A stretch of 64,000 nt of DNA, from the NCBI RefSeq assembly GCF_001683915.1, contig NZ_LXTT01000020.1, positions 62,001-126,000 on the forward strand. The letters run 5' to 3'. Shown here in pieces: positions 31,975-60,901 of the stretch. Position 1 is the first letter of the stretch, and each line of letters starts with the position of its first letter. The position numbers and the translations under genes are program-made. This stretch comes from Allomuricauda sp. CP2A (GTDB lineage Bacteria > Bacteroidota > Bacteroidia > Flavobacteriales > Flavobacteriaceae). A model generated the notes under the pieces. It was not told the DNA's origin and made no database searches. It saw only the letters and a list, made by a program, of their open reading frames with translations.

Positions 31975-34971
31975 ATGAAATTGGCTAATTTTTTATCTAA
32001 GGCATTTTTGGAAATCAATGGGTTCAAGAAGCAATTCTTCTTCTCCGTTGTTTGTCTAGTATTTGCGCAAACAGCATTTTCACAACAGCAAGTTACAGGT
32101 ACAATTACCGATAAAAGCGGGATCCCCATTGCAGGGGCGTCTGTTGTTGAAAAAAGTACGACCAACGGTACCGTTACGGATTTCGATGGTAATTTTGAAA
32201 TCACTACCTCAGATTCCAATGCAATATTGGTTTTCTCGTATTTAGGTTTTGCAACCCAGGAAGTTCCTGCAACATCAAACATGAGTGTGGTGTTGGAGGA
32301 GGATTTGGAACAACTCTCTGAAGTTGTGGTGATAGGTTATGGTACCCAAAAGCGTGCCGATGTAACAAGCTCGGTGGCAACCGTAAAAGCTGAAGATTTT
32401 GTTCAGGGTAATGTTAAGGATGCCGCACAACTTATTCAAGGTAAAGTGGCAGGTCTTTCCGTTTCCGCTCCTTCCGGAGACCCAACTGAAGGAACCCAAA
32501 TCAGTTTAAGGGGTATGTCATCTTTGTCGGCAGACTCTGCGCCCTTGGTCTTGGTGGACGGTGTTCCAGGTAGTTTGAATACAGTGGCTCCTGAGGACAT
32601 TGAGTCTGTCGACGTATTGAAGGATGGTTCTGCTACCGCTATTTATGGTACCCGAGGCACCAATGGTGTGATCATCATAACTACCAAAAAAGGGACCAAT
32701 GATATGAAGTCTACCATTGAGTACAATGGGTACGCTTCCTTGGCCACCATTGCAGATAGGATGAATTTTTTGAATGCCTCTGAACTTCGACAGAAATTTA
32801 ATGAGGGCTACACTTTTACCGGGGCCAACCTTCAAGATTTTGGAGCTGATACGGATTGGGTGGATGAAATCACAAGGGACGCTTTCAGTCAAGTGCACAA
32901 TATTATTTTTAGGGGAGGGAACTCCACCTCAAATATGACAGCTTCTGTCAACTATAGGGACATTGAGGGTATCTTCCTAAAATCCAACAATGAGAAATAT
33001 ACAGGCAGGATCAATGTAAACCATGCCATGTTCGATAATAAATTGAAAACCAATGTTGGTGTAATTTTAAGCGAGCAAGTGTATAATGCATTGGGTGATG
33101 GCCAGAGCTTTAACCCAACCATTTACCGTCAGGCGATTATCCATAACCCAACTGAACCAATCTATAATGAAGATGGCAGCTATTTTGAAAGGGCAGTTTA
33201 TTTTTATGACAACCCAGTTTCAATGATTCAGGAAACCATTGGGGAGAATCGATACAGAACCAGCAGGATAGATTTTTCCATGAGCTATGATTTTGGTGAT
33301 CATCTTACCGTAAAAGGATTGTACACCCGAAAAGGGGAAACCAATATCAGGGGGTTCTATCAAACAAAAAACCACGTTTCCACCACTGAAAGTGGACAGG
33401 ACGGATTTGCCTCAAGAGGTACGGATAACTACGTTGGGAATTATGGTCAGTTTACAGTAGATTATGACAATAACTTTGGTGACCACAGGGTAACCGCACT
33501 TGCTGGCTACAACTACGAGGATAATATGAACGAAGGGTTCTGGGCCAACAACCGTAGGTTTCCAACCGATGGATTTACCTATAACAACATTGGTAGTGGA
33601 CAAGGTTTGCAGCTAGGTGAAGCCGGTATGGGAAGCTTCAAGAATGCGGATAAACTGATTGCATTCTTCTCAAGGGTCACCTACAACTATGATAATCGTT
33701 ACCTTTTAATGGCCAGTTTGCGTCGTGAAGGTTCCACCCGTTTCGGTGAAGATTACAAATGGGGTAATTTCCCTGGAATTTCTTTGGGATGGCGTGTTGA
33801 TCAAGAGTCTTTTGCTGAAAATTGGGACTGGTTGTCCAACTTAAAACTACGGACTGGTTTTGGGGTTACCGGTACCAATGCTGGAGAAAGATACCAATCC
33901 TTGAGCGGTCTTTCTTATGGGGATTATTTTTTCAACAACGGCCAATGGGTGAGACAGTTGGTGCCATCTCGTAATGCCAACTCCAATTTGCGCTGGGAAA
34001 AGAAAGAAGAATTTAACGTAGGTTTGGATTTTGGAGTATTGGGCGGACGTATCAATGGATCTGTGGATTACTATAACAGAACCACGAAAGATGCCTTGTT
34101 TGACTATAGTGTACCTACACCTCCTTATTTTTATGGTAGTATTGCGGCAAACGTTGCAGAGATCAAGAACACCGGTCTGGAATTCTTGTTGAATGTGACT
34201 CCATTTCAAACGGATAACTTCCAGTGGACCGCGAATTTGACCTATTCCACCAATACCAACGAGATTGTGTCTTTGTCAAACGATGAATTTCAGTTGACCA
34301 ATGATTTCTTTGATGAAGGATATACCGGAGAGCCTATTCAGATTTCCACGCACAGGGTACAGGAAGGACAACCCATTGGTAATTTCTTTGGATTGAAGAG
34401 TGTTGATATCACTGATGATGGTATTTGGATCATTGAAAGACCTGATGGTTCCAGAGTCCCTGCCACCGAAGCTACCAACGATGACCGTCAGGTACTCGGT
34501 AATGGTCTTCCAAAGGCATATTACAGCTGGAACAACACCGTAAAATACAAGAACTGGGACCTTATGTTCAATTTAAGGGGTGCATTGGATTATCAAATCC
34601 TAAACTTTTCCCGTATGTTCTATGAGAACCCAACCATTGGTTATAACACCTTGGATTCTGCCTACGATTTGGTGTACGGTAAAGCCGTGCTACAAGATGT
34701 GCAACGTTATGTAAGCCACTATATTGAGGATGGTGATTTCCTTAAAATTGACAACGTTACTTTGGGATACACCCTTCCTAAGGATGCCATTAAGTTTGCC
34801 CAGACTTTCCGGATTTATGCCTCCGGTCTAAACTTGGCAACCTTTTCAAAATACAAGGGAATCGACCCAGAAATTAACAACAGGGATAATCCGTTGTCGC
34901 CAGGTAATGATAACAGGGATAAATATCCTACAATCAGAACCTTTACGTTGGGCATCAACTTTACATTTTAA
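31975..34971 (+). CDS. SusC/RagA-family TonB-linked outer-membrane transporter
   Basis: The 998-residue protein has a signal peptide (AQTAFSQ), a carboxypeptidase-regulatory-like domain (VTGTITDKSGIPIAGASVVEK), the TonB-box region and plug with the SusC signature YGTRGTNGVIIITTKKG near residue 225, and a 22-strand barrel to the C-terminal FTLGINFTF. SusC proteins import oligosaccharides or peptides with the SusD lid. The substrate is not encoded in the sequence; its neighbours (hydroxyproline catabolism, prolyl peptidase, arabinofuranosidases) point to hydroxyproline-containing glycopeptides. It is 11 bp upstream of susD-like gene. Confidence 0.96.
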   Translation: MKLANFLSKAFLEINGFKKQFFFSVVCLVFAQTAFSQQQVTGTITDKSGIPIAGASVVEKSTTNGTVTDFDGNFEITTSDSNAILVFSYLGFATQEVPATSNMSVVLEEDLEQLSEVVVIGYGTQKRADVTSSVATVKAEDFVQGNVKDAAQLIQGKVAGLSVSAPSGDPTEGTQISLRGMSSLSADSAPLVLVDGVPGSLNTVAPEDIESVDVLKDGSATAIYGTRGTNGVIIITTKKGTNDMKSTIEYNGYASLATIADRMNFLNASELRQKFNEGYTFTGANLQDFGADTDWVDEITRDAFSQVHNIIFRGGNSTSNMTASVNYRDIEGIFLKSNNEKYTGRINVNHAMFDNKLKTNVGVILSEQVYNALGDGQSFNPTIYRQAIIHNPTEPIYNEDGSYFERAVYFYDNPVSMIQETIGENRYRTSRIDFSMSYDFGDHLTVKGLYTRKGETNIRGFYQTKNHVSTTESGQDGFASRGTDNYVGNYGQFTVDYDNNFGDHRVTALAGYNYEDNMNEGFWANNRRFPTDGFTYNNIGSGQGLQLGEAGMGSFKNADKLIAFFSRVTYNYDNRYLLMASLRREGSTRFGEDYKWGNFPGISLGWRVDQESFAENWDWLSNLKLRTGFGVTGTNAGERYQSLSGLSYGDYFFNNGQWVRQLVPSRNANSNLRWEKKEEFNVGLDFGVLGGRINGSVDYYNRTTKDALFDYSVPTPPYFYGSIAANVAEIKNTGLEFLLNVTPFQTDNFQWTANLTYSTNTNEIVSLSNDEFQLTNDFFDEGYTGEPIQISTHRVQEGQPIGNFFGLKSVDITDDGIWIIERPDGSRVPATEATNDDRQVLGNGLPKAYYSWNNTVKYKNWDLMFNLRGALDYQILNFSRMFYENPTIGYNTLDSAYDLVYGKAVLQDVQRYVSHYIEDGDFLKIDNVTLGYTLPKDAIKFAQTFRIYASGLNLATFSKYKGIDPEINNRDNPLSPGNDNRDKYPTIRTFTLGINFTF

Positions 34972-34982
34972 AATAAAGAACT

Positions 34983-36581
34983 ATGAAAAATATACGAAAC
35001 AAAGTGACTACACTTAGACTAAGATTTTTGATACTGTCGGTCAGTGTGCTACTATTGCCAATAAGCTGTACCGACCTTGAGGAGGAAGTTTTTTCCGAAG
35101 TGACCGAATCATCCTTCGTCCCAGCGGAGTCAGATATTATTGCTGTAATGGCCTCGGCCTATACACCCATGCGATATGTAATGGGATGGCAGGGATACTT
35201 TGATGTTCAGGAAGAACCAGCTGATATGTTTGTGACACCAACAAGACCTAACGGTTGGGATGATGGGGGAACCTATAAGAGAATGCACTTCCACGAATGG
35301 ACCGAGACCCAATGGCAGCCCAGAAATACTTGGATCACTTGCTTCAACGGTATTAACAGTGCCAACAGGGTTATTCTTCAAATTGAATCTGGAGAACTTC
35401 CGGTAAGTGAAGCACAAGCCACATCAATCATTGCAGAAATGAGGGCCTTGAGGGCATTGTACTACTCTATGTTGGTGGATACACATGGAAATGTGCCGAT
35501 CATTGCAAGCTATAGCGATGAACTTCCAGTTCAGAGCAGCCGTTCCGAAGTATACGATTTTATCGTTTCCGAATTGAACGAGGTAATTCCAAACCTAACT
35601 GAAACTGTAGACCAGTCAACCTATGGGCGTATGACCAAATGGGCAGCCTACCATGTTTTGGCGCGCGTGTATTTAAACGCTGAAGTGTATACAGGTACCG
35701 CACAATGGGACAACGTTATCGCTGCTTGTGATGAAATCATCGATAGTGGGGCTTTTGAACTTTCGTCCAACTATTCCGATATTTTTGCTACTGAAAACCA
35801 AGGTAACTCTGAAATGGTTTTTGCCATCCCTTACGATCAAATTTTTGCCGGTCAGTGGAATGCCCATATGAAAATGATGAATCCCGAACACAGATTGGTG
35901 TTTGGCATGCAGGCACAACCTTGGGGAGGATCTAGCTGTAACCCTCAATTTATTGATAGTTATGAGCCAACCGATAATCGTTTGGCTGATACATGGTTGA
36001 TGGGCGATCAATTGAGCTATACCGACGGAAGTGTTGTATTTACTTTGGTAAAAGAAATGCCAAGTATATATGGATGTGATTTCACCCAAGGATTCAAATG
36101 TGGTAAATATGAAATTGAACCAGGTGCCACCGGTGGTCTTAGTGTGGATTTCCCATTTTTGCGCTATACCGATGTTCTTATGATGAAGGCCGAAGCCCTG
36201 CTCAGAACCGATAGGAGCGATGAAGCTGCCACTATTGTGACCCAAGTGCGTATGCGTTCTTTTGACGATCCTGCTGATGCTGCCGTTACCGGTGCTGAGT
36301 TGGAAGGTGATACCACTGTGGAATACGGAACTTTGGCCGAAGACGGAACCATTGATGAACCCGGCGATCAATCTGTAGTGCCTTACGGACGCTTCTTGGA
36401 TGAATTGGGTTGGGAGTTTGCTGCAGAGGCCAGAAGAAGAACCGACCTTATCAGGTTTGGCGTTTACCAGACCAAAAATTGGTACAACCATACACCTAAG
36501 GGAGATTATACAACATTGTTCCCTATAGGTTTGGAAGAATTGAATACGAACACCAATCTAAACCAGAACCCTGGCTACTAA
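34983..36581 (+). CDS. SusD/RagB-family nutrient-binding lipoprotein
   Basis: The 532-residue protein has a lipobox (LLLPISCTD, Cys29) and the all-helical SusD fold with TPR-like repeats (AEMRALRALYYSMLVDTHGNVPI, RMTKWAAYHVLARVYLNAEVYTG, YTDVLMMKAEALLRTDRSDEA). The terminal RFGV...LFPIGLEELNTNTNLNQNPGY is the family ending. It is the surface lid of the SusC transporter. Between residues about 430 and 470 there is a Thr/Gly/Glu-rich insertion. A terminator follows at 36641. Confidence 0.96.
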   Translation: MKNIRNKVTTLRLRFLILSVSVLLLPISCTDLEEEVFSEVTESSFVPAESDIIAVMASAYTPMRYVMGWQGYFDVQEEPADMFVTPTRPNGWDDGGTYKRMHFHEWTETQWQPRNTWITCFNGINSANRVILQIESGELPVSEAQATSIIAEMRALRALYYSMLVDTHGNVPIIASYSDELPVQSSRSEVYDFIVSELNEVIPNLTETVDQSTYGRMTKWAAYHVLARVYLNAEVYTGTAQWDNVIAACDEIIDSGAFELSSNYSDIFATENQGNSEMVFAIPYDQIFAGQWNAHMKMMNPEHRLVFGMQAQPWGGSSCNPQFIDSYEPTDNRLADTWLMGDQLSYTDGSVVFTLVKEMPSIYGCDFTQGFKCGKYEIEPGATGGLSVDFPFLRYTDVLMMKAEALLRTDRSDEAATIVTQVRMRSFDDPADAAVTGAELEGDTTVEYGTLAEDGTIDEPGDQSVVPYGRFLDELGWEFAAEARRRTDLIRFGVYQTKNWYNHTPKGDYTTLFPIGLEELNTNTNLNQNPGY

Positions 36582-36640
36582 GATTTCGGATTTGTACTCA
36601 AGTGTTTTTTAATAATTGTTTGAGTTTGTTGTTAGTGAAG

Positions 36641-36674
36641 AAGCGGATGGTTTGCCATCCGCTTTTTCTTTTTT
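36641..36674 (+). terminator. Intrinsic terminator after SusD
   Basis: A 10-bp stem (AAGCGGATGG at 36641-36650, CCATCCGCTT at 36655-36664) closes a TTTG loop and runs into a T-rich tract. It limits the SusCD transcript and faces the end of the AraC-family gene. Confidence 0.9.
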
Positions 36675-36739
36675 GGGCAATTTCTAAAACCCTTTGTGGG
36701 CCAAATCATATTGTTGGTGGTATGGTAATGGCACCTAGT

Positions 36740-37639
36740 TTAAAATTGAGAGCGATATTTGGAGGGGGTACAGCCCTTTAATTCCTTAAACTTTCTATTA
36801 AAGTTGGGAATGTTGGTAAAACCACATTGTTCAGATATCAACGAAATGGAAAGTTCGGGTTTGTGGACAATGAGCTTGCAGGCATTTTCAATTCGTATTT
36901 CAATTAAAAATTGAAAAAAGGTCTTGTTGGTACGTTTTTTAAAGTACCTGCAAAAGGCATTCTTGCTCATGCTGGCCTTTTCAGAAATTTGCTCCAAGGT
37001 GATCTGTTCATGGTAATGTTCCATGGCAAATTTTAAAACGTCGCTCATGCGCTTCCCCTCATCATCAGAATAAATTTTTCGATACACAAAAGAGGAAAGT
37101 GGTTGGGTCTCGGATTGTGCTATTTGGCTTATCACCATCAAGAGTGAAGCAATCTGTTCAACCTTGTTTTGCTGTGGCAGACCGTTGAAAAGTGCTATGA
37201 CCTTGTCCTTGTTCGTGAGCACTTTCATCCCATATTCCGACAGTTTAAAAAAATCATGGGTCAGGGTAAGGTCCGTCAAACGAAAAAAATCCTTTCCAAA
37301 GGAATTATAGTCAAAGAAAAGGGTATACATAACAGATTCCTCAGATGCGTTCACATCACTCCGGAAAACGTGTGGAACATACCCTCCAATAACCAGAATG
37401 TCGCCCTCATTATACTCATTTATGGAGTCACCCACGATCAATGAACCAGAGCCTTTCTCAATATAACTTATCTGTATTTCCGAGTGTTGGTGAAGCTGGC
37501 CATAGAAAATTTTTTCCCTGTCTACCTGGTAAACGAGGGCCTCATCCTTGGGTTTGGGAATTTTAAAAGGGAGAACTCTCAAAGTTTTTAAGCAAATATT
37601 ACTAATAAAGTTAAACGAAATCAAATTATGGGTCAACAT
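36740..37639 (-). CDS. AraC-family transcriptional regulator
   Basis: The 299-residue protein has an N-terminal cupin-type sensing domain (about 40-130; GQLHQHSEIQISYIEKGSGSLIVGD, GDILVIGGYVPHVFRSD) and a C-terminal pair of HTH motifs (EQISEKASMSKNAFCRYFKKRTNKTFFQFLIEIRI, SLISEQCGFTNIPNFNRKFKELKGCTPSKYR). It is divergent from the deaminase gene with 77 bp between, so it most likely activates or represses the hydroxyproline set. The annotated ATG gives a 19-residue extension; a TTG at 37582 (LRVLPFKIPK) is an alternative start, closer to the usual beginning of such proteins. Confidence 0.92.
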   Translation of the reverse strand: MLTHNLISFNFISNICLKTLRVLPFKIPKPKDEALVYQVDREKIFYGQLHQHSEIQISYIEKGSGSLIVGDSINEYNEGDILVIGGYVPHVFRSDVNASEESVMYTLFFDYNSFGKDFFRLTDLTLTHDFFKLSEYGMKVLTNKDKVIALFNGLPQQNKVEQIASLLMVISQIAQSETQPLSSFVYRKIYSDDEGKRMSDVLKFAMEHYHEQITLEQISEKASMSKNAFCRYFKKRTNKTFFQFLIEIRIENACKLIVHKPELSISLISEQCGFTNIPNFNRKFKELKGCTPSKYRSQF

Positions 37640-37696: not shown

Positions 37697-37716
37697 TATC
37701 AAAATATTTTAGTATT

Positions 37717-38640
37717 ATGATAAATTGGGAAGGCGTAATGCCAGCTGTGACCACAAAGTTTACCAGCGAGGATCAATTGGACCTTGCGATGTTTGAAAAG
37801 AATATTAAAGCACAAATTGATGCTGGGGTCCATGGGATCATTTTAGGAGGAACGTTGGGTGAGGCCAGTACACTGGAGCATGAGGAAAAAGAAACACTGA
37901 TCAAGACCTCTCTCTCCTTGGTGGACGGGAAAATACCAGTTATCATCAATATTGCGGAGCAAAGTACAAAAGATGCCATTGCAGTGGCACAACATGCCGA
38001 GAAGGTAGGGGCGCAAGGCTTGATGATCCTGCCTCCCATGAGGTACAAGGCAACGGATTTTGAGACTGTGACCTATTTTAAGAGCATAGCCAAAAGCACA
38101 TCTTTGCCCATCATGATCTACAACAATCCAATAGATTATAAGATTGAAGTGACCTTGGATATGTTGGAAGATTTGTTGGAATGCGAGAATATCCAAGCCG
38201 TAAAGGAGTCCACAAGGGACATTACCAATGTACTCCGAATCAAAAGTAGATTTGGAGACCGTATAAAAGTATTTACCGGGGTGGATACCCTTGGTCTGGA
38301 AAGTTTGGTCATTGGAGCCGATGGATGGGTGGCCGGTTTGGTCTGTGCTTTCCCGGCAGAAACTGTTGCTATCTACGAATTGGTAAAAGCAGGAAAAATA
38401 AATGAGGCCCTTGAAATTTACAAATGGTTCATGCCATTGTTGGAATTGGACATCAGTCCCCAATTGGTTCAGAACATAAAGTTGGCAGAGGTGGCCACCG
38501 GAATAGGCACAGAAAATGTACGGGCTCCAAGATTGCCTTTGCAAGGTGCTGAAAGAGAGCGTGTATTGGAGGTGATAAACAAGGCAATGGCCAGCAGGCC
38601 CGCACTTCCCGAATATAAAGATCTCAGCAGCGTGGCCTAA
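37717..38640 (+). CDS. DapA-family lyase, probable 1-pyrroline-4-hydroxy-2-carboxylate deaminase
   Basis: The 307-residue protein is a class I aldolase-like TIM barrel of the dihydrodipicolinate synthase family, with GGTLGEAS near residue 44, Tyr135 in MIYNNP and Schiff-base Lys163 in IQAVKEST. Its direct neighbours are a 4-hydroxyproline epimerase and a D-amino-acid oxidase, so it most likely deaminates and dehydrates 1-pyrroline-4-hydroxy-2-carboxylate to 2-ketoglutarate semialdehyde. DapA paralogues also include sialic acid and KDG lyases, which the sequence alone does not exclude. It is the first gene after the divergent AraC regulator. Confidence 0.87.
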   Translation: MINWEGVMPAVTTKFTSEDQLDLAMFEKNIKAQIDAGVHGIILGGTLGEASTLEHEEKETLIKTSLSLVDGKIPVIINIAEQSTKDAIAVAQHAEKVGAQGLMILPPMRYKATDFETVTYFKSIAKSTSLPIMIYNNPIDYKIEVTLDMLEDLLECENIQAVKESTRDITNVLRIKSRFGDRIKVFTGVDTLGLESLVIGADGWVAGLVCAFPAETVAIYELVKAGKINEALEIYKWFMPLLELDISPQLVQNIKLAEVATGIGTENVRAPRLPLQGAERERVLEVINKAMASRPALPEYKDLSSVA

Positions 38641-38682
38641 TTGATTACTGGGTAAAACTATATTGGAAACAAACTTAGGGGA

Positions 38683-38717
38683 ATTGGGGGTAGGGTTCAA
38701 GACCATAAACCCCCAAT
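38683..38717. repeat. Perfect 9-bp inverted repeat between two hydroxyproline genes
   Basis: ATTGGGGGT at 38683-38691 and ACCCCCAAT at 38709-38717 are exact reverse complements with 17 bases between. There is no T-run after it, so it is not a usual terminator. It may be an operator or mRNA-processing structure before the epimerase gene. Confidence 0.4.
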
Positions 38718-38803
38718 CAACTATTGCCCAATTCTTTAAAAGGATAGTGCATTTTTAACTTACTTTGCGCATTAAGTCATAATACTGTTTTAACAACCAA
38801 CGC

Positions 38804-39811
38804 GTGGCAAGAAAGACTTTTTTTTGTGTTGATGCCCACACTTGCGGTAACCCCGTTCGTGTAGTGGCAGGAGGAGGCCCCAACCTTTTGGGCAAGAACA
38901 TGAGCGAAAAGAGACAACACTTTCTCAAGGAATTTGATTGGATCCGCACGGGCTTGATGTTTGAGCCTAGGGGGCATGATATGATGAGTGGAAGCATTTT
39001 GTTTCCACCCCACCAGCCCGAAAACGATTTTTCCATTCTGTTCATTGAGACCTCTGGTTGTCTGCCCATGTGCGGGCATGGGACCATCGGCACAATTACC
39101 GTAGCCATAGAAGAAGGGCTGATCGTACCCAAGACACCGGGGAAAATTAGAATGGAAGCCCCAGCAGGGTTAGTGGAAATAGAGTATCAGCAATCTGGCA
39201 AGAAGGTGGATTGGGTCCGCTTGGTCAATGTTAAGTCGTACCTCGCCGCTGAAAACTTAACGGTGGAATGTCCAGAACTTGGTGAGCTAACGTTTGATGT
39301 GGCCTACGGTGGAAATTATTACGCCATTGTGGATCCCCAAAAGAATTTTGGCGGTGTCCATAATTTTACGGCAGCCCAGATTATCCAATATTCCAAAGTG
39401 GTTCGGGAACGGATCAATAAAAAGTATCCCGATATGTTCATTCACCCCGAGGATCCCACCATTAGGGATGTAAGCCATATGCAATGGACAGGCGACCCCA
39501 TTGACCCAACCTCATCTGGAAGGAATGCAGTGTTTTATGGCGACAAGGCCATAGACCGTTCTCCATGTGGTACGGGTACTTCGGCCCGTATGGCCCAGTT
39601 GAGCGCAAAAGGCAAGCTGAAAATGGGAGAGGATTTTATCCATGAAAGCTTTATCGGAAGCAAATTCATTGGAAGGGTAGTGGAGGAAACTACCTTGGCC
39701 GGCAAAAAGGCTATTGTTCCCAGCATACAGGGTTGGGCACAGGTTACGGGCTACAACAATATCATTATAGACGATGACGACCCCTATGCCCACGGGTTTC
39801 AAGTGTTGTAA
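38804..39811 (+). CDS. 4-hydroxyproline 2-epimerase (proline racemase family)
   Basis: The 335-residue enzyme converts trans-4-hydroxy-L-proline to cis-4-hydroxy-D-proline. Both catalytic cysteines are present, Cys90 in MCGHGT and Cys255 in DRSPCGTGT, which separates it from trans-3-hydroxyproline dehydratases (Cys/Thr pair). The start is GTG at 38804 (MARKTFFCVDAHTCGNPVRVV); no in-frame ATG precedes the conserved N-terminus. It lies between the deaminase and the FAD oxidase, which provide the following steps. A true proline racemase is unlikely given this setting. Confidence 0.93.
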   Translation: MARKTFFCVDAHTCGNPVRVVAGGGPNLLGKNMSEKRQHFLKEFDWIRTGLMFEPRGHDMMSGSILFPPHQPENDFSILFIETSGCLPMCGHGTIGTITVAIEEGLIVPKTPGKIRMEAPAGLVEIEYQQSGKKVDWVRLVNVKSYLAAENLTVECPELGELTFDVAYGGNYYAIVDPQKNFGGVHNFTAAQIIQYSKVVRERINKKYPDMFIHPEDPTIRDVSHMQWTGDPIDPTSSGRNAVFYGDKAIDRSPCGTGTSARMAQLSAKGKLKMGEDFIHESFIGSKFIGRVVEETTLAGKKAIVPSIQGWAQVTGYNNIIIDDDDPYAHGFQVL

Positions 39812-43514: not shown

Positions 43515-43562
43515 AAAAGAAAAAAAGTGAAAAGTATCAGTTGTAAAAATAAGAGTGTAATT

Positions 43563-50255: not shown

Positions 50256-50389
50256 GAGGACTAAAATCCTAAATCTAATTCTGTTAAACAAATGTTTGTA
50301 AGGTAAACACAAAAAATAATCTAAGCAGATTCATAACACTTTTTTAACGCTAATTCTTGCAAAATCCAAAATTCTTTACGTTCTTTACT

Positions 50390-50441
50390 AGTGTGGATGA
50401 TACACTTTAAAATCGTTGAATCGATAATTCGCGTGGCGAAT
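50390..50441. promoter_or_regulatory. Inverted repeats in the AraR-GH51 intergenic region
   Basis: AGTGT-N7-ACACT at 50390-50406 and ATTCGC-GTG-GCGAAT at 50427-50441 are short inverted repeats in the gap between the divergent araR-like and GH51 genes. They are candidate operator or leader-RNA structures; neither is proven. Confidence 0.35.
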
Positions 50442-52075: not shown

Positions 52076-52082
52076 AGAATTA

Positions 52083-54056
52083 ATGAAGAAAGGATTACTA
52101 ATGACAATGGGCCTAGTGGCCCTAGTGGTGTCGTGTAAGAGCAATACCCAGAAACAGCCGGATGATGCAGCGTTGGATGTAAAAGAAGGATATCCCATTG
52201 AAGCGGTAAACATCAGAAATGTAAAATTAAAGGATGATTTCTGGTTGCCCATTATAGAAAGGGTTCAGGAAAAAACCATTGAATTTGCCCTTGAGAAATG
52301 CGAAGAAGAGGGGCGGTTTGACAATTTCCTGATTGCCGGGGGTGAAATGGAAGGACCTGTCAAAGGGGTCATGCCTTTTGATGACACCGATGTCTACAAG
52401 ATTATTGAAGGGGCATCCAACTCCTTGATCAGTGCGCCAAACCCCCAATTGGAGACCTTATTGGATTCCTTGGTGTCCATCATAAAAGTGGGACAGGAAG
52501 CAGATGGTTATTTGACAACATGGAGAACCATAAATCCGGCCAAACCACCTGCATCTTGGGTTGAGGTGAATGAAGGAAAACGTTGGGAATCTTTGGCCGC
52601 GAGCCATGAACTCTACAATGCAGGTCATTTGTTTGAAGCCGCTGCCGTACACTATAAAGCCACCGGAAAACGAAATTTCTTGGACATCGCCCTTAAAAAT
52701 GCAGATCTTATGGTGGAGACATTTGGTGATGGAGAGGGAAAGATAGCTGCGGTACCCGGGCATCAAATTATTGAGACGGGACTCATTAAATTATATGAGG
52801 TCACTGGAAAGAAAGAATATTTTGATCTTGCCAAATACTTTTTGGATCATAGGGGAGACCCAGAAAACCATGAACTTTTTGGAGCATATTCACAAGATCA
52901 TTTGCCGGTTATCCAACAAGATGAGGTGGTGGGCCATGCCGTTAGAGCGGTATATATGTACGCTGGTATGACGGACATTGCCGCTATTGAAAAGGATACT
53001 GCGTATTTGAAGGCAGTGAATGCCCTTTGGGATAATATGGTCACCAAGAAAATGTACATTACCGGAGGTATTGGTGCAAAACATGAAGGAGAGTCTTTTG
53101 GTGAAAATTATGAACTGCCCAACTTAACCGCTTATAATGAAACCTGTGCTTCCATTGGGGATGTCTACTGGAACCACAGACTGCACAATCTTACTGGGGA
53201 CGTGAAATATTTTGATGTTATTGAGCGGACCTTGTACAATGGATTGATTTCTGGACTTTCCTTGGACGGAGAGAAATTTTTCTACCCCAATGCCTTGGAA
53301 TCCGATGGGGTTTACAAGTTCAACCAAGGCGCATGTACCCGAAAAGATTGGTTTGATTGCTCTTGCTGCCCCACCAATGTGATCCGTTTTATTCCCGCCA
53401 TGCCCGGTTTGATCTATTCCAAAACCGATGATACCATATTTGTGAATCTGTATGCTGCCAACGATGCCACGGTTGATCTTAAAGATCAAGCCGTTCAAGT
53501 ATCGCAGGAAACCACATATCCGTGGAATGGAAAAGTAAAACTTACCTTAGATCCAGAAGAAACTGGTGAGTTTACCATGAAGTTCAGGGTTCCCGGATGG
53601 ATCAGAAATCAGGTTTTGCCCAGTGATTTGTATCACTATGCCAACCCGGTGGACCAAAACAGCACCATAACCATCAATGGAGAAGCCATTGATGCGGTTG
53701 CTGAGAACGGTTACTATACCCTATCCCGGGAGTGGAAAGCAGGAGATGTGGTCAACTTGGAATTTCCCATGGAAGTGCGAAAAGTCATTGCAAACCCATT
53801 GGTTGAAGAGAATAAGGACAAAATGTCCTTGGAATACGGCCCCATTGTGTATGCCGTGGAAGAGGTTGACAATAAAGGAGATTTTGACAACATTAAATTG
53901 GCGTCAAACGACCAATTTCAAGTTGAAATGCAGCCTGACTTATTGGGAGGTGTAAGCACTATTTCCAACGATAATCTAACCGCCATACCCTATTATGCTT
54001 GGTCCAATAGGGGGGTAGGGAAAATGAAAGTGTGGTTGCCCATTGAAAAGAACTAA
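52083..54056 (+). CDS. GH127 beta-L-arabinofuranosidase (HypBA1-like) lipoprotein
   Basis: The 657-residue protein has a lipobox (LVALVVSCKSN, Cys18) and a full GH127 domain. Glu353 and Cys355 (YNETCAS), Cys428 and Cys429 (SCCPT) match the zinc ligands Glu338, Cys340, Cys417 and Cys418 of Bifidobacterium HypBA1, and Glu337 (HEGES) matches acid/base Glu322 with the same spacing. HypBA1 releases beta-linked L-arabinofuranose from hydroxyproline-linked arabinosides. The gene begins eight bases after GH51. A second DUF1680 enzyme lies upstream at 43563. Confidence 0.95.
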   Translation: MKKGLLMTMGLVALVVSCKSNTQKQPDDAALDVKEGYPIEAVNIRNVKLKDDFWLPIIERVQEKTIEFALEKCEEEGRFDNFLIAGGEMEGPVKGVMPFDDTDVYKIIEGASNSLISAPNPQLETLLDSLVSIIKVGQEADGYLTTWRTINPAKPPASWVEVNEGKRWESLAASHELYNAGHLFEAAAVHYKATGKRNFLDIALKNADLMVETFGDGEGKIAAVPGHQIIETGLIKLYEVTGKKEYFDLAKYFLDHRGDPENHELFGAYSQDHLPVIQQDEVVGHAVRAVYMYAGMTDIAAIEKDTAYLKAVNALWDNMVTKKMYITGGIGAKHEGESFGENYELPNLTAYNETCASIGDVYWNHRLHNLTGDVKYFDVIERTLYNGLISGLSLDGEKFFYPNALESDGVYKFNQGACTRKDWFDCSCCPTNVIRFIPAMPGLIYSKTDDTIFVNLYAANDATVDLKDQAVQVSQETTYPWNGKVKLTLDPEETGEFTMKFRVPGWIRNQVLPSDLYHYANPVDQNSTITINGEAIDAVAENGYYTLSREWKAGDVVNLEFPMEVRKVIANPLVEENKDKMSLEYGPIVYAVEEVDNKGDFDNIKLASNDQFQVEMQPDLLGGVSTISNDNLTAIPYYAWSNRGVGKMKVWLPIEKN

Positions 54057-54147: not shown

Positions 54148-55824
54148 ATGAAAAAGTACGTAATAGGATTGGATTATGGTTCCGACTCGGTTAGAGCGGT
54201 TTTGATTGATACGGAAAATGGAGCGGAGTTGTCCTCGGAGGTCTTTTGGTACCCCCGCTGGAAAGAACAGAAATACTGCAAACCTGAAATTAATCAGTTT
54301 AGGCAGCATCCCTTAGATCATATTGAAGGTTTGGAGCATACCATAAAAGCTGTGGTTACCCAAAGTGGAGTGAACCCCGAAACCATTGTGGGAATTTGTA
54401 TTGACACCACCGGTTCGTCGCCCATGCCACTTACAAAAGAAGGAACCCCCTTGGCCTTGGTGGAAGGATTTGAAGAAAACCCCAATGCCATGATGGTGTT
54501 GTGGAAAGACCACACCGCTGTAAAAGAAGCCAACGAAATCAATGAATTGGCGAGAAGCTGGGGCGGTGAAGACTATACAAAATACGAAGGCGGCATCTAT
54601 TCCTCCGAATGGTTTTGGGCCAAGATACTTCATGTTGCCCGGGAAGATAAAAAGGTTGTTGAGGCTACGCATACGTGGATGGAGCATTGTGATTACATCA
54701 CGTATCTATTGGCCGACCAGAAAGATTTAGAAACATTCAAACGAAGCAGATGTGCCGCTGGTCATAAGGCCATGTGGCATGAAAGCTGGGGAGGATTGCC
54801 ATCCCAAGAGTTTCTCTCCAAGTTGGATCCCTATTTGGCATCCCTTCGGGATAAGCTTTATGACGAGACCTATACCTCCAACGAAATTGCAGGCCATTTG
54901 AATGAAGAATGGGCAACCAAATTGGGACTTACCACCAATACGGTGCTGGCAGTGGGAACATTTGATGCCCATGCCGGAGCGGTAGGGGCCAAAGTGGACC
55001 ACCATGTGCTGGTTCGGGTGATGGGCACTTCCACCTGCGATATCATGGTATCCACCCACGATGCCGTTGGCGATAAGACCGTAAAAGGCATTTGTGGTCA
55101 AGTTGACGGCTCCGTAATCCCTGGTTTGATGGGATTGGAAGCAGGTCAATCCGCTTTTGGGGATGTGTTGGCCTGGTTCAAGAATGTATTGGCCTGGCCT
55201 GTGGATAATTTGGTGATGAAGTCATCAATCCTATCCGAAGAACAAAAACAACAGTTGAGCGAAGAAGTTGAAGCCAAATTTATACGGACTTTGGCCGAAC
55301 AGGCCGAGGCAATCCCACTTTCGGAAGTGGTGCCCATGGCTTTGGATTGGGTCAACGGAAGAAGAACTCCAGATGCCAATCAAGAACTGAAGAGTGCCAT
55401 AACCGGAATCTCATTGGGGACAAAAGCACCCCATATTTTCAAAGCTTTGGTAAATTCCATCTGTTTTGGTTCCAAAATGATTGTAGACCGATTTGAGGAA
55501 GAAGGCGTTAAGATAGAGTCGGTTATCGGTATTGGTGGTGTGGCACGGAAATCGCCTTTCATCATGCAAACGTTGGCCAATGTCTTGAACATGCCCATAA
55601 AAGTTGCCGAATCGGATCAGGCACCTGCCTTGGGTGCGGCCATTTACGCAGCCACCGCAGCTGGGGTTTATGAATCCGTTATTGAGGCAAGCAAGGTGAT
55701 GGGCAGTAGTTTTGAAGCTGAATATTTTCCGCAGGCTTCTCAAGTGGAGACCTATGCCAAATTGATGGAATCTTATAAAGAGCTTGGTCAATTTGTGGAA
55801 GAACAAACAAACAAAAAGAGTTAA
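54148..55824 (+). CDS. araB: Ribulokinase AraB
   Basis: The 558-residue FGGY-family kinase phosphorylates L-ribulose to L-ribulose-5-phosphate. It has the N-terminal phosphate motif GLDYGSDSVRAVLIDT, the sugar-contact WMEHCDYITYLLA, VGTFDAHAGAVGA near residue 270, and the C-terminal nucleotide motif IGIGGVARKSPFIMQ. Length and motif order are those of cytosolic AraB. It is the first of three consecutive ara genes; araD starts one base after its stop. Confidence 0.97.
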   Translation: MKKYVIGLDYGSDSVRAVLIDTENGAELSSEVFWYPRWKEQKYCKPEINQFRQHPLDHIEGLEHTIKAVVTQSGVNPETIVGICIDTTGSSPMPLTKEGTPLALVEGFEENPNAMMVLWKDHTAVKEANEINELARSWGGEDYTKYEGGIYSSEWFWAKILHVAREDKKVVEATHTWMEHCDYITYLLADQKDLETFKRSRCAAGHKAMWHESWGGLPSQEFLSKLDPYLASLRDKLYDETYTSNEIAGHLNEEWATKLGLTTNTVLAVGTFDAHAGAVGAKVDHHVLVRVMGTSTCDIMVSTHDAVGDKTVKGICGQVDGSVIPGLMGLEAGQSAFGDVLAWFKNVLAWPVDNLVMKSSILSEEQKQQLSEEVEAKFIRTLAEQAEAIPLSEVVPMALDWVNGRRTPDANQELKSAITGISLGTKAPHIFKALVNSICFGSKMIVDRFEEEGVKIESVIGIGGVARKSPFIMQTLANVLNMPIKVAESDQAPALGAAIYAATAAGVYESVIEASKVMGSSFEAEYFPQASQVETYAKLMESYKELGQFVEEQTNKKS

Positions 55825-55825
55825 A

Positions 55826-56524
55826 ATGTCAACATATAAATCGCTTAAGGAAGAATGTTATGAGGCCAATATGGAGCTCAATGCCCTGGGGCTGGTCATA
55901 TACACTTTTGGCAATGTAAGTGCAGTGGATAGACAGAATGGTGTTTTTGCCATTAAGCCCAGTGGGGTGCCCTACGAGAAACTGAAACCATCGGACATGG
56001 TGATTTTGGACTATGACAATACCGTGGTTGAGGGTGATTTACGCCCTTCTTCGGATACCAAGACCCATAGCTATCTCTATAAAAATTGGGAAAACATTGG
56101 AGGAGTGGCCCATACCCATGCCATGTACTCTGTCTCTTGGGCCCAGGCCCAACGTGATATTCCCATTTTTGGGACCACACATGCAGACCACCTGACACAA
56201 GATATTCCTTGTGCCCCACCAATGGCCGATGATTTGATTGAAGGCAATTATGAGCACAACACCGGAATACAGATTTTGGATTGTTTTTCATCCCGAAACT
56301 TGGATTACAATGAAGTGGAAATGGTGCTCATAGGGAACCACGGTCCTTTTGCCTGGGGCAAAAACGCGGCCAAGGCCGTGTACAATACTAAAGTATTGGA
56401 GACCGTGGCGCAGATGGCCTACCTAACCCTTCAAATCAACCCCGACGCCCCTAGATTAAAAGACTCTTTAATAAAAAAACATTATGAGCGTAAGCATGGC
56501 AAAAATGCCTATTACGGTCAATGA
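55826..56524 (+). CDS. araD: L-ribulose-5-phosphate 4-epimerase AraD
   Basis: The 232-residue class II aldolase-fold enzyme makes D-xylulose-5-phosphate. Zinc ligands are in VAHTHAMYS and GTTHADH, the phosphate contact is in GNVSAVD and SRNLDYN, and the catalytic region has NHGPFAWGK. The start MSTYKSLKEECYEANMEL at 55826 is the usual beginning; an in-frame longer start would overlap araB by 40 bases. It lies between araB and araA. Confidence 0.96.
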   Translation: MSTYKSLKEECYEANMELNALGLVIYTFGNVSAVDRQNGVFAIKPSGVPYEKLKPSDMVILDYDNTVVEGDLRPSSDTKTHSYLYKNWENIGGVAHTHAMYSVSWAQAQRDIPIFGTTHADHLTQDIPCAPPMADDLIEGNYEHNTGIQILDCFSSRNLDYNEVEMVLIGNHGPFAWGKNAAKAVYNTKVLETVAQMAYLTLQINPDAPRLKDSLIKKHYERKHGKNAYYGQ

Positions 56525-56544
56525 CGAATCAATAATTAAAATAA

Positions 56545-58050
56545 ATGAAAATAGCTGAAAAGGAGATTTGGTTTGTAACAGGAAGCCAACATTTGTACGG
56601 CCCTGAAACACTAAAGCAAGTGGCCGCAAACTCAAAAAATATTGTGGATGGATTGAATGCATCGGGCAATTTGCCCATTTCTTTGGTATTTAAACCAGTG
56701 GTGACCACTCCAGATGAAATTACCGCTGTATGCAGGGAGGCAAGCAATGATGTCAAATGTATTGGTGTTGTGGCGTGGATGCATACCTTCTCGCCATCTA
56801 AAATGTGGATAGCCGGACTTACCGTGTTGAGCAAGCCATTGTGCCATCTTCATACCCAGTTCAATGCCGAAATCCCATGGGACAGCATTGATATGGACTT
56901 TATGAACCTGAACCAATCCGCCCACGGGGATCGTGAGTTTGGTTTTATGATGACCCGTATGCGCAAAAAGCGCAAGGTTGTGGTTGGGCATTGGAAAGAT
57001 GCACGCGTTCAGCAAAAACTGGCCGTTTGGTCAAGGGTAGCTTTGGGCTCCCATGAACTGCAAAATATGAAAGTGGCCCGGATTGGGGACAACATGCGCG
57101 AGGTGGCCGTTACCGAAGGAGACAAAGTAGCTGCCCAAATGCGGTTTGGGGTCGCTGTGAATGCATACGACTCGTCTGACATCACTAAAATCATCGATAC
57201 GTTAGATCAAAAGTCAATTGACCAACTGCTTGAAGAATACGAATCAAGCTATAATTTGACCGACGCCCTTAAAAAAGGAGGCGCCCAACGGGAATCCCTA
57301 GTCGAGGCCGCCAAGATTGAATTGGGGCTTCGCACCTTTTTGGATAACGGAGGTTTTAAAGCCTTTACCGATACCTTTGAGAACTTGGGAACTTTACGTC
57401 AGCTACCTGGATTAGCCGTTCAGCGGTTAATGGCAGACGGTTATGGTTTTGGTGGCGAAGGCGATTGGAAGACGGCAGCCATGGTCCGTGCCATGAAAGT
57501 TATGGCCACCGGATTGGAAGGAGGCACTTCTTTTATGGAAGATTATACCTATCACTTCACCCCGGAAAAGGATTATGTCTTGGGATCCCATATGTTGGAG
57601 ATTTGCCCATCCATTGCCAAAGGAAAAGTATCCTGTGAAGTGCATCCATTGGGTATCGGTGGCAAGGAAGACCCTGTGCGGTTGGTGTTCAATTCACCCG
57701 CTGGCGAAGCACTCAATGCTTCTTTGGTGGATATGGGAAATAGATTCCGTTTGATCGTGAATGAAGTTGAAGCCGTGGAACCTATGGCGGATTTACCTAA
57801 ATTGCCGGTTGCCAGGGTTCTTTGGGATGCCAAACCCAATTTAGATGTGGCTGCAACAGCTTGGATATTGGCTGGAGGAGCACACCATACGGTCTATACA
57901 CAAGCGTTGACCACCGAATACATGGAAGATTTTGCCGATATTTTCGGCATTGAACTTTTGGTAATTGATGCTGATACGCGAATTAGAAGTTTCAAAGACC
58001 AGATACATGCCAATGAAGCCTATTACCATTTGTTTCAACATAATATGTAG
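56545..58050 (+). CDS. araA: L-arabinose isomerase AraA
   Basis: The 501-residue enzyme isomerises L-arabinose to L-ribulose. It shows [17 protein letters not shown] at the start, [39 protein letters not shown], and the metal-binding region [13 protein letters not shown] and [12 protein letters not shown] with the expected Glu and His ligands. Length matches AraA of Bacteria. It completes the araB-D-A set, 20 bp after araD. Confidence 0.98.
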
Positions 58051-58087
58051 ATATAAAAATCAGTAATTAATCGAACAAACTAAAATC

Positions 58088-59272
58088 ATGAGAACAATAC
58101 AAGCTTCTTTTCTATATTTTGTTTTTCTTGCAGCACTCTTACATTTGGGGTGTAAGGAAAATAAAAAAGAGAACCAATCGGAGAATCAAATGGTGAAGAC
58201 GGAATCAGGGAAAAGCCATGTTGGGAAAAGCACTTTTGGCGAAATGCCCAATGGAGAACAAGTGGATAAGTATACCCTCAGCAACGAAAATGGCATGGAG
58301 GTAGACGTCATCACCTACGGTGGTATCATTACGCGTTGGACCGCTCCTGATAAAAATGGAAATTATCAAGATGTGGTTCTGGGATTCAATGATCTGGAAT
58401 CTTATTTTGGAGATGTACCGTATTTTGGAGCATTGGTTGGTCGGTATGGCAACCGTATCGCCAAAGGCCAGTTCTCTTTGGATGGCGAAACCTATACCTT
58501 GGCCAAAAACAATGGACCAAACCATTTGCACGGGGGAAACAAAGGATTTGATAAAGTGGTGTGGAATGCAGAGGCGGAAAACACTGATGATGGAGCTTCT
58601 TTGGTGCTTACCTATACCAGTGCCGATGGTGAAGAAGGCTATCCCGGAAAGCTTGATGTAAAAGTGACCTATACCTTAACAGGTGACGACCAATTGGATA
58701 TTCACTATGAAGCAGTGACGGATAAACCAACGGTGGTAAACCTTACCCAGCACAGCTATTTCAATCTTTCTGGGGATTTTTCCCAAGATATTCTGGATCA
58801 TGAAGTCACGTTGAATGCACCGGCCTATTTGCCTGTGGATGCGGGATTGATTCCAACAGGGGAACTTCGCCCCGTTGAGGGAACACCTTTTGATTTCACC
58901 GAACCCAAAGCAGTTGGGAAGGAAATCAATGCCGATAATGAACAAATCAAAAGAGGTGGGGGTTACGATCACTGCTGGGTGTTGGATGAAACAAACGGGG
59001 ATTTTGGTTTGGCAGCATCAGCCTATCATCCAGAAACGGGACGATTATTGGAAGTCTATACCGATGAACCTGCAATACAATTCTATACCGGAAATTTCTT
59101 GAATGGAGCTTTGGTCTCCAAAACTGGGGGAACCTATGGAAAGCGTTCTGGGCTTTGTTTGGAAACACAGCACTATCCTGACTCACCCAATCAGGAAGCA
59201 TTCCCAAGCACAAGGTTAAATCCAGGTGAAACCTATAGTTCGCGCACCAGTTTTAAATTCTCAACCAAATAA
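58088..59272 (+). CDS. galM: Lipoprotein aldose 1-epimerase (mutarotase)
   Basis: The 394-residue protein has a lipobox (LLHLGCKE, Cys22) and a GalM domain: VDVITYGGIITRW, GRYGNRIAKGQF, GPNHLHGGNKGFDKVVW with the catalytic His, LTQHSYFNLSGD with the second His, and the catalytic Glu in LCLETQHYPDSPNQ. It should interconvert anomers of L-arabinose (released as beta from GH127 and alpha from GH51) in the periplasm before uptake. It directly precedes the symporter gene by nine bases. Confidence 0.95.
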   Translation: MRTIQASFLYFVFLAALLHLGCKENKKENQSENQMVKTESGKSHVGKSTFGEMPNGEQVDKYTLSNENGMEVDVITYGGIITRWTAPDKNGNYQDVVLGFNDLESYFGDVPYFGALVGRYGNRIAKGQFSLDGETYTLAKNNGPNHLHGGNKGFDKVVWNAEAENTDDGASLVLTYTSADGEEGYPGKLDVKVTYTLTGDDQLDIHYEAVTDKPTVVNLTQHSYFNLSGDFSQDILDHEVTLNAPAYLPVDAGLIPTGELRPVEGTPFDFTEPKAVGKEINADNEQIKRGGGYDHCWVLDETNGDFGLAASAYHPETGRLLEVYTDEPAIQFYTGNFLNGALVSKTGGTYGKRSGLCLETQHYPDSPNQEAFPSTRLNPGETYSSRTSFKFSTK

Positions 59273-59281
59273 GCTACCATA

Positions 59282-60901
59282 ATGCAGAGATTGGATACGA
59301 TTGATTGGATTACCATATCCATTTATTTTGTGGTGCTCTTGGGGATAGCAGTTTGGGTTATCCGAAAAAAGAAAGAAAATACCGAGGACTACTTCCTTGC
59401 TGGCAGAAATGTGGGATGGTTTGTGGTCGGAGCATCCATTTTTGCCTCCAACATAGGGTCGGAACACGTAGTGGGGCTCGCTGGAGCAGGCGCTGGTGAC
59501 CGATTGCCCATGTTGATCTATGAAATCCAAGCTTGGGTTGTATTGATTCTGGGTTGGGTCTTCCTACCGTTCTACGCAAGGGCAGGAGTGTTTACCATGC
59601 CGGAATTCTTGGAAAAACGTTTTGATGCCCGCTCGCGCTGGATACTTTCCGTATTCTCCATTGTAGCTTATGTATTGACCAAGATTTCGGTAACCATTTA
59701 TGCCGGTGGTGTTGTGGTCTCCGCTTTATTGGGCATCGATTTTTGGACCGGCGCCATTGCCACAGTAGTATTGACTGGGGTGTATACGGTCCTTGGAGGA
59801 ATGCGTGCAGTGGTCTATACCGAAACGTTACAAGCCATAATATTGATCATTGGGGCGGCAGCCCTAACAGTTATTGGATTAGAACATGTAGGAGGTTGGG
59901 AAAGTATGAAGGAGACCGTGACCCCGGAATATCTGAATATGTGGCGTTCCGCTTCTGATCCTGATTTTCCTTGGCCATCGCTATTGATAACCAGTACAAT
60001 TGTTGGAATTTGGTATTGGTGTACGGACCAGTACATCGTTCAGCGAGCATTGACCGCAAAGAATATCAAGGAAGGAAGACGGGGAACCATTTTTGGCGCA
60101 TTGTTGAAATTGATGCCAGTTTTCTTGTTCTTGATTCCAGGAGTCATTGCATTGACCTTAAAAATGAGAGGGGAGTTGCAATGGGATTCACCTGATGAGG
60201 CATTCCCTGTTTTGATGAGTAATTTACTGCCTTCAGGATTAAGGGGATTGGTGGCCGCAGGTCTCTTGGCAGCCTTGATGAGTTCGTTGGCCTCTGTGTT
60301 CAATTCGTGTTCAACATTGTTCACGGTGGATATTTACAAAAAGCTACGGCCCAATACTCCCGAGAAAAAACTGGTGAGAACAGGTCAGATTGCTACGGTG
60401 ATCGTGGTGATCATCGGTATTATCTGGATTCCTATCATGGCCAATATTTCTGGAGTGCTCTATGAATACCTTCAGAGTGTACAATCCTATATAGCACCTC
60501 CCATCACCGCAGTATTTTTGTTGGGAATTTTCCACAAACGAATCAATGCCCAAGGGGCTTATGTGACCTTGATTGTTGGATTTGTGGTGGGTGCCCTTCG
60601 TATTGTTCTCGAACTTGTCAAGGATTCACTTGACCCGAGCAGTTTCTGGTTCACTTTGGGAGATATGAACTTTTTATCTTTCGCAGCATGGTTTTTCCTA
60701 TTCTGTATCATTTTGATCTTGGTGGTGAGCTATGCCACGGCCGCACCATCTGAGGAAAAACTGAAGAACTTGACGTATGCCACCATTTCTGAGGAAGAAA
60801 AACAAGAAAACAAGAACAGCTACAACTGGAAAGATATAGTCATATCCATTTTAATTGTGGCCATTGTAATCTATGTGATGGTTTGGTTCAACGGAAAGTA
60901 A
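59282..60901 (+). CDS. Sodium/sugar symporter (SGLT-like, SSS family)
   Basis: The 539-residue inner-membrane protein has about 14 transmembrane helices and the SSS-family segments GRNVGWFVVGASIFASNIGSEHVVGLAGAG, MPEFLEKRFDARSRWILS and TGVYTVLGGMRAVVYTE. The last helix ends in VIYVMVWFNG. SGLT-type symporters import monosaccharides with Na+; the position after the mutarotase points to L-arabinose. It is the last gene of the arabinose run and is followed by a strong terminator. Confidence 0.95.
   Translation: MQRLDTIDWITISIYFVVLLGIAVWVIRKKKENTEDYFLAGRNVGWFVVGASIFASNIGSEHVVGLAGAGAGDRLPMLIYEIQAWVVLILGWVFLPFYARAGVFTMPEFLEKRFDARSRWILSVFSIVAYVLTKISVTIYAGGVVVSALLGIDFWTGAIATVVLTGVYTVLGGMRAVVYTETLQAIILIIGAAALTVIGLEHVGGWESMKETVTPEYLNMWRSASDPDFPWPSLLITSTIVGIWYWCTDQYIVQRALTAKNIKEGRRGTIFGALLKLMPVFLFLIPGVIALTLKMRGELQWDSPDEAFPVLMSNLLPSGLRGLVAAGLLAALMSSLASVFNSCSTLFTVDIYKKLRPNTPEKKLVRTGQIATVIVVIIGIIWIPIMANISGVLYEYLQSVQSYIAPPITAVFLLGIFHKRINAQGAYVTLIVGFVVGALRIVLELVKDSLDPSSFWFTLGDMNFLSFAAWFFLFCIILILVVSYATAAPSEEKLKNLTYATISEEEKQENKNSYNWKDIVISILIVAIVIYVMVWFNGK

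Follow-up and report, generated by a model that had tools for sequence, protein, structure and literature searches.

A candidate arabinose-controlled locus for hydroxyproline-rich glycoprotein use in Allomuricauda sp. CP2A

The 64-kb window analysed here, meaning the whole stretch of DNA under study, comes from Allomuricauda sp. CP2A (genome of 4.27 Mb in 173 contigs) and carries a locus in which genes for hydroxyproline (Hyp) catabolism adjoin genes for the release and use of L-arabinose. Hydroxyproline-rich glycoproteins (HRGPs) occur in the cell walls of green algae and plants, and the original prediction for this DNA held that a single system removes arabinose from such glycoproteins and consumes both the sugar and the Hyp backbone. 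All our evidence on the locus is computational. Its 17 genes run in the order susC, susD, araC, hypD, hypE, hypO, S9 peptidase, GH127a, DUF5695, araR, GH51, GH127b, araB, araD, araA, galM and SSS symporter, with the remnant of a dehydrogenase gene between hypD and hypE; 15 of the 17 lie on the + strand, araC and araR being the exceptions. Every gene named in the original prediction is present where it was placed and has its family match, and the description 'almost all on one strand' stands, although the DUF5695 gene, the minus-strand Nudix-type AraR and the decayed dehydrogenase gene had been missed. Judged by the first DUF1680 protein, the closest named relatives are Muricauda, Flagellimonas and Allomuricauda species and one Gelidibacter metagenome-assembled genome (MAG).

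At the upstream end a SusC/RagA TonB-dependent transporter (31975..34971, + strand; TIGR04056, 751.6 bits) adjoins a SusD-like lipoprotein (34983..36581, +; PF07980, PF14322), which together with the co-located carbohydrate-active enzymes and a regulator identifies a SusCD polysaccharide-utilisation locus (PUL). An AraC-family regulator (36740..37639, −; PF12833) diverges from the Hyp genes. HypE (38804..39811, +) is a 4-hydroxyproline 2-epimerase, scoring 595 bits against a cut-off of 376 for NF010578 and retaining the two catalytic cysteines, Cys90 and Cys255. HypD (37717..38640, +; PF00701), a DapA-family protein and presumed pyrroline-hydroxycarboxylate deaminase, falls below the dapA equivalog cut-off, and its nearest solved DapA-type chains are named dihydrodipicolinate synthase; HypO (39834..41078, +; PF01266, family level only) is an FAD oxidoreductase of the D-amino-acid oxidase family, presumed to be a D-hydroxyproline oxidase or dehydrogenase. 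Both belong to the right superfamilies and are recurrent neighbours of HypE, and neither passes a specific model. They are followed by an S9 dipeptidyl-peptidase-IV-like peptidase (41265..43514, +; PF00930, PF00326), whose nearest solved chains are bacterial DPP4. The arabinose half opens with AraR (49518..50312, −; PF21906, PF00293 and PF19368 AraR_C), an NrtR/Nudix-type regulator and presumed L-arabinose repressor, and continues with a GH51 alpha-L-arabinofuranosidase (50522..52075, +; PF06964), GH127b (51990..54056, +; PF07944/20736/20737; true start probably after GH51), the ribulokinase AraB (54148..55824, +; TIGR01234, above cut-off), the L-ribulose-5-phosphate 4-epimerase AraD (55784..56524, +; NF006047, 357 bits; start probably overcalled) and the L-arabinose isomerase AraA (56545..58050, +; NF002795, 839.5 bits), the only AraA match in the genome. 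An aldose 1-epimerase (mutarotase, galM; 58088..59272, +; PF01263) and a sodium:solute symporter (SSF) of the SSS family, presumed to import arabinose (59282..60901, +; TIGR00813, far under the PutP cut-off), complete the row. By eye, hydrophobic signal-like N-termini are visible on S9, GH127a, DUF5695 and GH51.

The two DUF1680 proteins differ in their closest solved chains. GH127b matches 6ex6 at 676 bits and HypBA1 at 325 bits, and is GH127 proper of the HypBA1 type; the original prediction had called both proteins GH127-type. GH127a (43527..46622, +; PF07944; an internal ATG may be its true start), a putative beta-L-arabinofuranosidase in which LamG and Big_4 domains precede the catalytic domain, instead matches 5opj at 215 bits and 8k7y/8k7x at 138/137 bits, and HypBA1 at only 38 bits; from the chain names and PMC10850190 we infer that 5opj is BT0349 and 8k7x/y are Bll3HypBA1 (GH146). 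Its Glu-Thr-Cys and Cys-Cys motifs align with both GH127 and GH146 and are invariant in 19 orthologues. With these motifs present and GH146 chains nearest, its sequence marks GH127a as GH146-like and not as a HypBA1-type GH127. Among GH146 enzymes, Bll3HypBA1 prefers beta1,3 links in arabinogalactan protein (AGP) and arabinan, and XeHypBA1 and Bll4HypBA1 act on arabinofuranose (Araf)-beta1-Hyp (PMC10850190). Because of the latter two, a GH146 placement by sequence would fit a Hyp-glycoprotein target at least as well as a HypBA1-type one.

The DUF5695 protein (46817..49528, +; PF18951, 1334.7 bits) had no convincing relative in a single-sequence search of the PDB, where one weak unrelated match appeared (E 0.095), and a profile of 25 DUF5695 sequences found no match there at E up to 10, which leaves it outside PL27 at the sequence level. 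For its AlphaFold2 model (mean predicted local distance difference test score, pLDDT, 75; predicted template-modelling score, pTM, 0.82) the top Foldseek match was the PL27 enzyme BACCELL_00875 (5no8, E 2.8e-20; 5nok, E 8.9e-20), with the next match at 7e-6; against 5no8 the template-modelling score was 0.72 by target over 784 columns at 15-16% identity, and the predicted structure has the PL27 fold, a beta-sandwich plus (alpha/alpha)6 barrel. PL27 enzymes share this architecture and take rhamnose off the glucuronate of gum arabic by beta-elimination, the gum-arabic arabinogalactan protein being their substrate (PMC8377490). We propose from this model that the DUF5695 protein, a putative polysaccharide lyase, may act on HRGP side chains. 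A role as substitute for GH121 was rejected, as none of the 50 fold matches listed is GH121 by description and PL27 is far ahead. In Wenyingzhuangia a RhaT-family gene and a desaturase-Rieske-reductase fusion lie directly upstream of the AraC/Hyp cluster (L034:16140-19548); the former would fit the release of rhamnose by a PL27-like enzyme.

We then compared gene neighbourhoods in a genus set of 71 genomes and a family sample of 249. HypE is found in 69 of the genus genomes, GH127a in 30 and AraA in 29, and 27 genomes carry both of the latter (Fisher p 5e-14, relatedness ignored). In 29 of its 30 carriers GH127a follows HypE by less than 10 kb on one strand, starting 39-212 bp past HypE in 11 genomes, and it shares a strand with AraA within 50 kb in 24 of the 27 carriers of both (within 30 kb in 23). 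In the family sample a HypE-type match occurs in 137 of 249 genomes at E 1e-50 (just a paralogue in a few cases), and GH127a in 12, all with HypE; by coordinates the two share a strand within 10 kb in eight of these and not in G075, G144, G154 and G030. A wider set comprised the best 80 of 358 GH127a relatives across the phylum, biased to close ones, with 10-kb flanks (13 of the 80 fetched loci being shorter than 20 kb). HypE lies in the flank of 31, upstream on the same strand in 29. DUF5695 accompanies 27 of the 31 loci with HypE vs 16 of the 49 without, and S9 26 vs 10. A chance neighbourhood is ruled out by the genus linkage counts and by the 80-locus set.

Relatives show at least three layouts. 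In the first, HypE and GH127a are separated by HypO and S9, and susCD lies upstream; the second differs in having several DUF885 genes upstream in place of susCD; in the third, seen in 11 genomes, GH127a comes directly after HypE. AraR usually follows; the stretches covered in G305, G317 and G256 contain none. In two further loci GH127a has both HypE and a DUF5695 match close by, arranged differently (L133 and L154, the DUF5695 match being weak in L154). We also read 20-kb stretches around HypE in 40 of the 137 genomes where HypE matched, the majority of them among the most similar, and found an AraC relative beside the Hyp genes in 37. DUF885 proteins, perhaps peptidases, recur in the locus (L083:13109-14803, L086:2-1627, L185, L188, L196, L197), three in a row in four genomes, and relatives of the window also carry a GH43 enzyme with LamG and F5/F8 domains. 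The translated GH127a range of Pedobacter antarcticus (L133:10001-13081) contains one stop codon.

A predicted operator would link the two halves at the regulatory level. We built a symmetric 19-bp AraR matrix from 12 distinct sites in the araR/GH51 gaps of relatives, leaving the window's own gap out of training. Three sites in the 64 kb score above 15.5 bits, all in the locus: the best lies before susC (31876..31894, at -99; 17.0 bits), the second within the signal-peptide codons of S9 (41288..41306, at +23; 16.1 bits) and the third in the araR/GH51 gap (50389..50407; 15.9 bits), whose orthologue in L083 is a training site. The next best scores 9.9. Shuffled windows gave a mean of 0.1 hits above 15.5 bits and three hits in 0 of 100 (shuffles ignore relatedness), and 740 kb of HypE stretches without GH127a (L036-L073 except L044) held four sites over that value. 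Applied to published BtAraR sites (sequences from PMC4666351), the matrix gave 21.0 bits for BT0365, which is bound by BtAraR, and 15.2 bits for the crystallised BT0356 site. With AraR next to the ara genes and matching predicted operators, the locus has, at the sequence level, the marks of a Nudix-type AraR regulon. Blind palindrome counting had given nothing useful, and it was the reading of gaps that gave the box. The pattern alone is not specific, with 27 matches genome-wide vs 22 for a control; when these pattern matches were scored by the matrix, as distinct from a full matrix scan of the genome, the three locus sites ranked 1, 2 (tie) and 4. Two further box-like sites stand beside SusC-like genes, at 16.1 bits (L212, C24:16834) and 15.8 bits (L209, C11:40161), and by sequence are possible further members of the regulon.

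Both outlying boxes recur in relatives. For susC, a box of at least 15.7 bits lies at -37 to -99 in 15 of 16 orthologues, the window's included, the miss being L173 (orthologues at 65% identity or more; the susC genes of L190, L194, L134, L180 and L044 were left out for having less than 150 bp of upstream DNA). Among susC genes below 65% identity with upstream DNA, boxes occur in L200 (19.3) and L202 (14.6), L138 and one L122 gene reach 12.3, and L128, L155, L174, L176 and the other L122 gene have none; three distant SusC genes directly after AraR (L098, L166, L183) each have a 19.3-bit box. The S9 box scores at least 12 bits in 30 of 47 rows (at most 46 genes, L034 and L135 being the same genome), between 20 and 83 bp inside the called frame and often at 23 or 32. 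It stays while the encoded residues vary (SVFFIL, SVFLTL, SVLFTF), and it also lies in signal-peptide codons in L095, L099-L103, L106, L107, L109, L112, L175 and L180. An AraR at least 64% identical is present in 16 of 16 genomes with the S9 box vs 8 of 15 without (Fisher p 0.002, relatedness ignored; 31 genomes picked among those outside the genus that have an S9 row, excluding L115). Upstream of the relatives' HypD, GH127a, DUF885, DUF5695, GH43 and GH127b genes no box reached 12 bits, the best being 10.9 (GH127a of L176). A 20.7-bit box before AraC in L180 was discarded, being the S9 box of the same locus read from the other side.

We consider the most economical account to be a single arabinose-controlled locus for arabinosylated HRGPs, and several observations weigh against it. 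HypE in 69 of 71 genus genomes means that Hyp catabolism is general there, and the matrix scan found no AraR box at the araC/hypD gap, for which reason the Hyp genes are probably under AraC control. In the wider set 49 of the 80 GH127a loci (13 of the 80 being under 20 kb) have no HypE in the flank, and araA lies in the 10-kb flank of none; in the nine of the 11 layout-3 genomes that were read, S9 and HypO are absent and DUF5695 is present in four. Maribacter (L106), Galbibacter (L112), the Gelidibacter MAG (L085) and G030 keep susCD-S9-GH127a-DUF5695 with no Hyp genes nearby, and arabinan and the beta-1,3-Araf of AGP are GH146 substrates too (PMC10850190). Several of these points would suit two independent adjacent loci, one for general Hyp peptides (e.g. 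collagen-derived) and one for arabinan or arabinose, which came to lie side by side in the history of a single genus: GH127a is often missing from Hyp clusters (absent in 37 of the 40 HypE stretches of 20 kb), AraR lies in the flank of 14 of the 80 GH127a loci, all from Muricauda, Flagellimonas or Allomuricauda, and, of 26 GH127a carriers outside the genus, 25 have AraA somewhere but only two, Galbibacter and the Gelidibacter MAG, were shown to have it close by. We nevertheless think this history improbable, given that predicted AraR boxes stand before susC and in S9 of the supposed Hyp half in several genera, that GH127a is the immediate neighbour of HypE in 11 genomes, and that the link exists in two orders, the arabinose half preceding susC in the Gelidibacter MAG and following in Galbibacter (where the coordinates put araA some 21 kb downstream of GH127a). 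Taken over relatives, the two halves stay together in most GH127a carriers of the genus, and the original prediction withstands its own refuting condition as far as genomes bear on it; the 10-kb GH127a flanks of the wider set hold no araA. The idea of one system draws support from the genus linkage and the boxes at susC and S9 while lacking a box at the Hyp genes.

The loci that keep the core without Hyp genes nearby, which make the Hyp genes a frequent and not a universal part of it, also raise the alternative of a PUL for arabinan/pectin or for arabinogalactan polysaccharide, in which the Hyp genes are passengers serving other peptides. G075 (L177) retains susCD, GH127a and DUF5695, and neither Hyp genes nor S9 were found in the stretch read; arabinan and AGP are likewise served by GH51, GH127, GH146 and AraR (PMC4666351; PMC10850190). 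Against this alternative speak the position of the Hyp genes in several genera, with AraC on one side and S9 or GH127a on the other, and the association of DUF5695 with HypE-bearing loci. In addition, S9 is present in 10 of the 49 loci without HypE, which suggests that peptide use is part of the core, and two additional M24 peptidases, of the Xaa-Pro type, occur in Wenyingzhuangia. We regard a purely polysaccharide target as a poor bet.

Aerobic Hyp catabolic clusters contain an epimerase, an oxidase, a deaminase and an alpha-ketoglutaric semialdehyde dehydrogenase (KGSADH). The original prediction of complete Hyp catabolism in the window fails at the last of these, and the absence of an intact KGSADH gene from the cluster is a further point against an HRGP locus working as a whole. 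Between HypD or AraC and HypE, 36 of the 40 HypE stretches have a frame of 503-545 aa, judged by length; the one checked, in L034, is an aldehyde dehydrogenase. Against L083, blastn shows that 1418 bp (L083 3738-5155) of a 1.5-kb aldehyde dehydrogenase gene, presumed to be KGSADH, are gone, and only a remnant is left in the window (38641..38747, +), in which roughly 75 and 29 bp survive from the 5' and 3' ends, respectively. An assembly artefact is unlikely, as G283 and G306, which with G292 (L083) are the closest genomes, also lack the gene and have different leftovers. By coordinates, the other 27 of the 30 genus GH127a carriers have a dehydrogenase match beside HypE or, in G256, beside GH127a; contig ends truncate two of the matches (G299, G303), and several are reported with one internal stop.

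With the locus gene deleted, this species must rely on an unlinked dehydrogenase for the last Hyp step. The sole match in the genome, at C165, shares 52% identity with the L035 type. Its score reaches the cut-off of no specific NCBIfam model; the best two are KGSADH models, and both fall far short. It stands in a row (L082:9889-15393) of aldehyde dehydrogenase, FAA-hydrolase, GntP permease and IlvD/Edd dehydratase that looks like an oxidative sugar-acid route to 2-oxoglutarate semialdehyde, as in pathways of the Weimberg type. We infer that the C165 enzyme is a candidate for serving both this pathway and the last Hyp step. The deletion could also mean that the Hyp half is decaying in this species, with sugar use kept and Hyp use lost, a course that could hold alongside the HRGP reading. 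DUF885 and DUF6055 genes of L083 are missing from the window too, with no visible remnants (G306 shares the DUF885 loss), which counts against an intact HRGP system here, and the C165 enzyme is no clear KGSADH. Set against this, the frames of HypD, HypE, HypO and S9 remain open, at 88-96% identity, in G283 and G306, and the C165 dehydrogenase is intact and kept at 94-100% in the four closest genomes. Decay of the Hyp half thus strikes us as unlikely, if worth keeping in view.

On balance we assign a probability of roughly 0.6 to one arabinose-controlled PUL for arabinosylated HRGPs (extensin- or arabinogalactan-protein-like) of algae or plants. The genes, their conserved neighbourhood and the operator-like sites are observed, and from them follow, as suggestions, the substrate, the enzyme specificities, the control and the order of steps. 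SusC/D would import a glycopeptide, from which arabinose could be removed by the DUF5695 protein as a putative lyase, by GH127a (GH146-like, perhaps acting on Araf-beta-Hyp), by GH127b and by GH51, and the DPP4-like S9 peptidase would free Pro/Hyp dipeptides. Arabinose may enter through mutarotase and symporter and pass to AraA, AraB and AraD; Hyp would be epimerised by HypE, oxidised by HypO and deaminated by HypD, and the semialdehyde oxidised to 2-oxoglutarate, here perhaps by the C165 enzyme. Free arabinose would release AraR from its operators at araR/GH51, susC and S9, with AraC probably governing the Hyp genes. The observation behind the original prediction was right, and its interpretation is partly supported, mostly surviving with the corrections given above. 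A stronger claim, that this is a new type of PUL which eats a glycoprotein whole, with one arabinose-sensing regulon, both sugar and Hyp metabolised, DUF5695 as a new HRGP lyase family and an operator inside peptidase signal-peptide codons, is tentative and in our judgement falls somewhat short of an even chance.

If true, a locus that also consumes Hyp would explain the whole use of the HRGP pool by Bacteroidota, where the Bifidobacterium longum system removes arabinose. It would also hint at what DUF5695 and GH146-like enzymes do, and offer a case, open to testing, in which a sugar controls the use of an amino acid. The original prediction knew of no PUL that combines both halves, and we too found no paper in the open-licence literature that recognisably describes one. 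For Latescibacteria, HRGP use has been predicted from GH127, and Hyp catabolism goes unmentioned in the relevant excerpts (PMC4454575).

Among the nearest known systems is the B. longum HRGP arabinoside cluster of HypAA (GH43), HypBA2 (GH121), HypBA1 (GH127) and an ATP-binding cassette (ABC) importer, for which the excerpted source describes three enzymes and a transporter and mentions no Hyp catabolism (PMC7263609). Like it, our locus pairs a GH127 enzyme with an importer, presumably aimed at Hyp-linked beta-arabinosides, and relatives of the window add GH43; unlike it, the window has SusC/D in place of the ABC importer, plus DUF5695, S9 and the GH146-like enzyme. The fold most like that of the DUF5695 model, aligned over 784 columns, belongs to the PL27 L-rhamnose-alpha-1,4-D-glucuronate lyase BACCELL_00875, from which the protein differs in being 16% identical and having no sequence-level profile match. 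As in aerobic Hyp clusters, HypE, the presumed HypO and HypD and an AraC regulator stand together, as they do in many family members, but in the window the set is embedded in a PUL and its dehydrogenase gene is deleted. With the Bacteroides AraR regulon (BtAraR, araMPRDAB, abf, susCD) the window shares an NrtR-type AraR beside the ara genes, sites of the form AAGTGT-N7-ACACTT and control of SusCD systems (PMC4666351), the latter two by prediction in the window; unlike that regulon, its predicted AraR reach includes a peptidase and a Hyp-catabolism locus, with one box lying inside codons.

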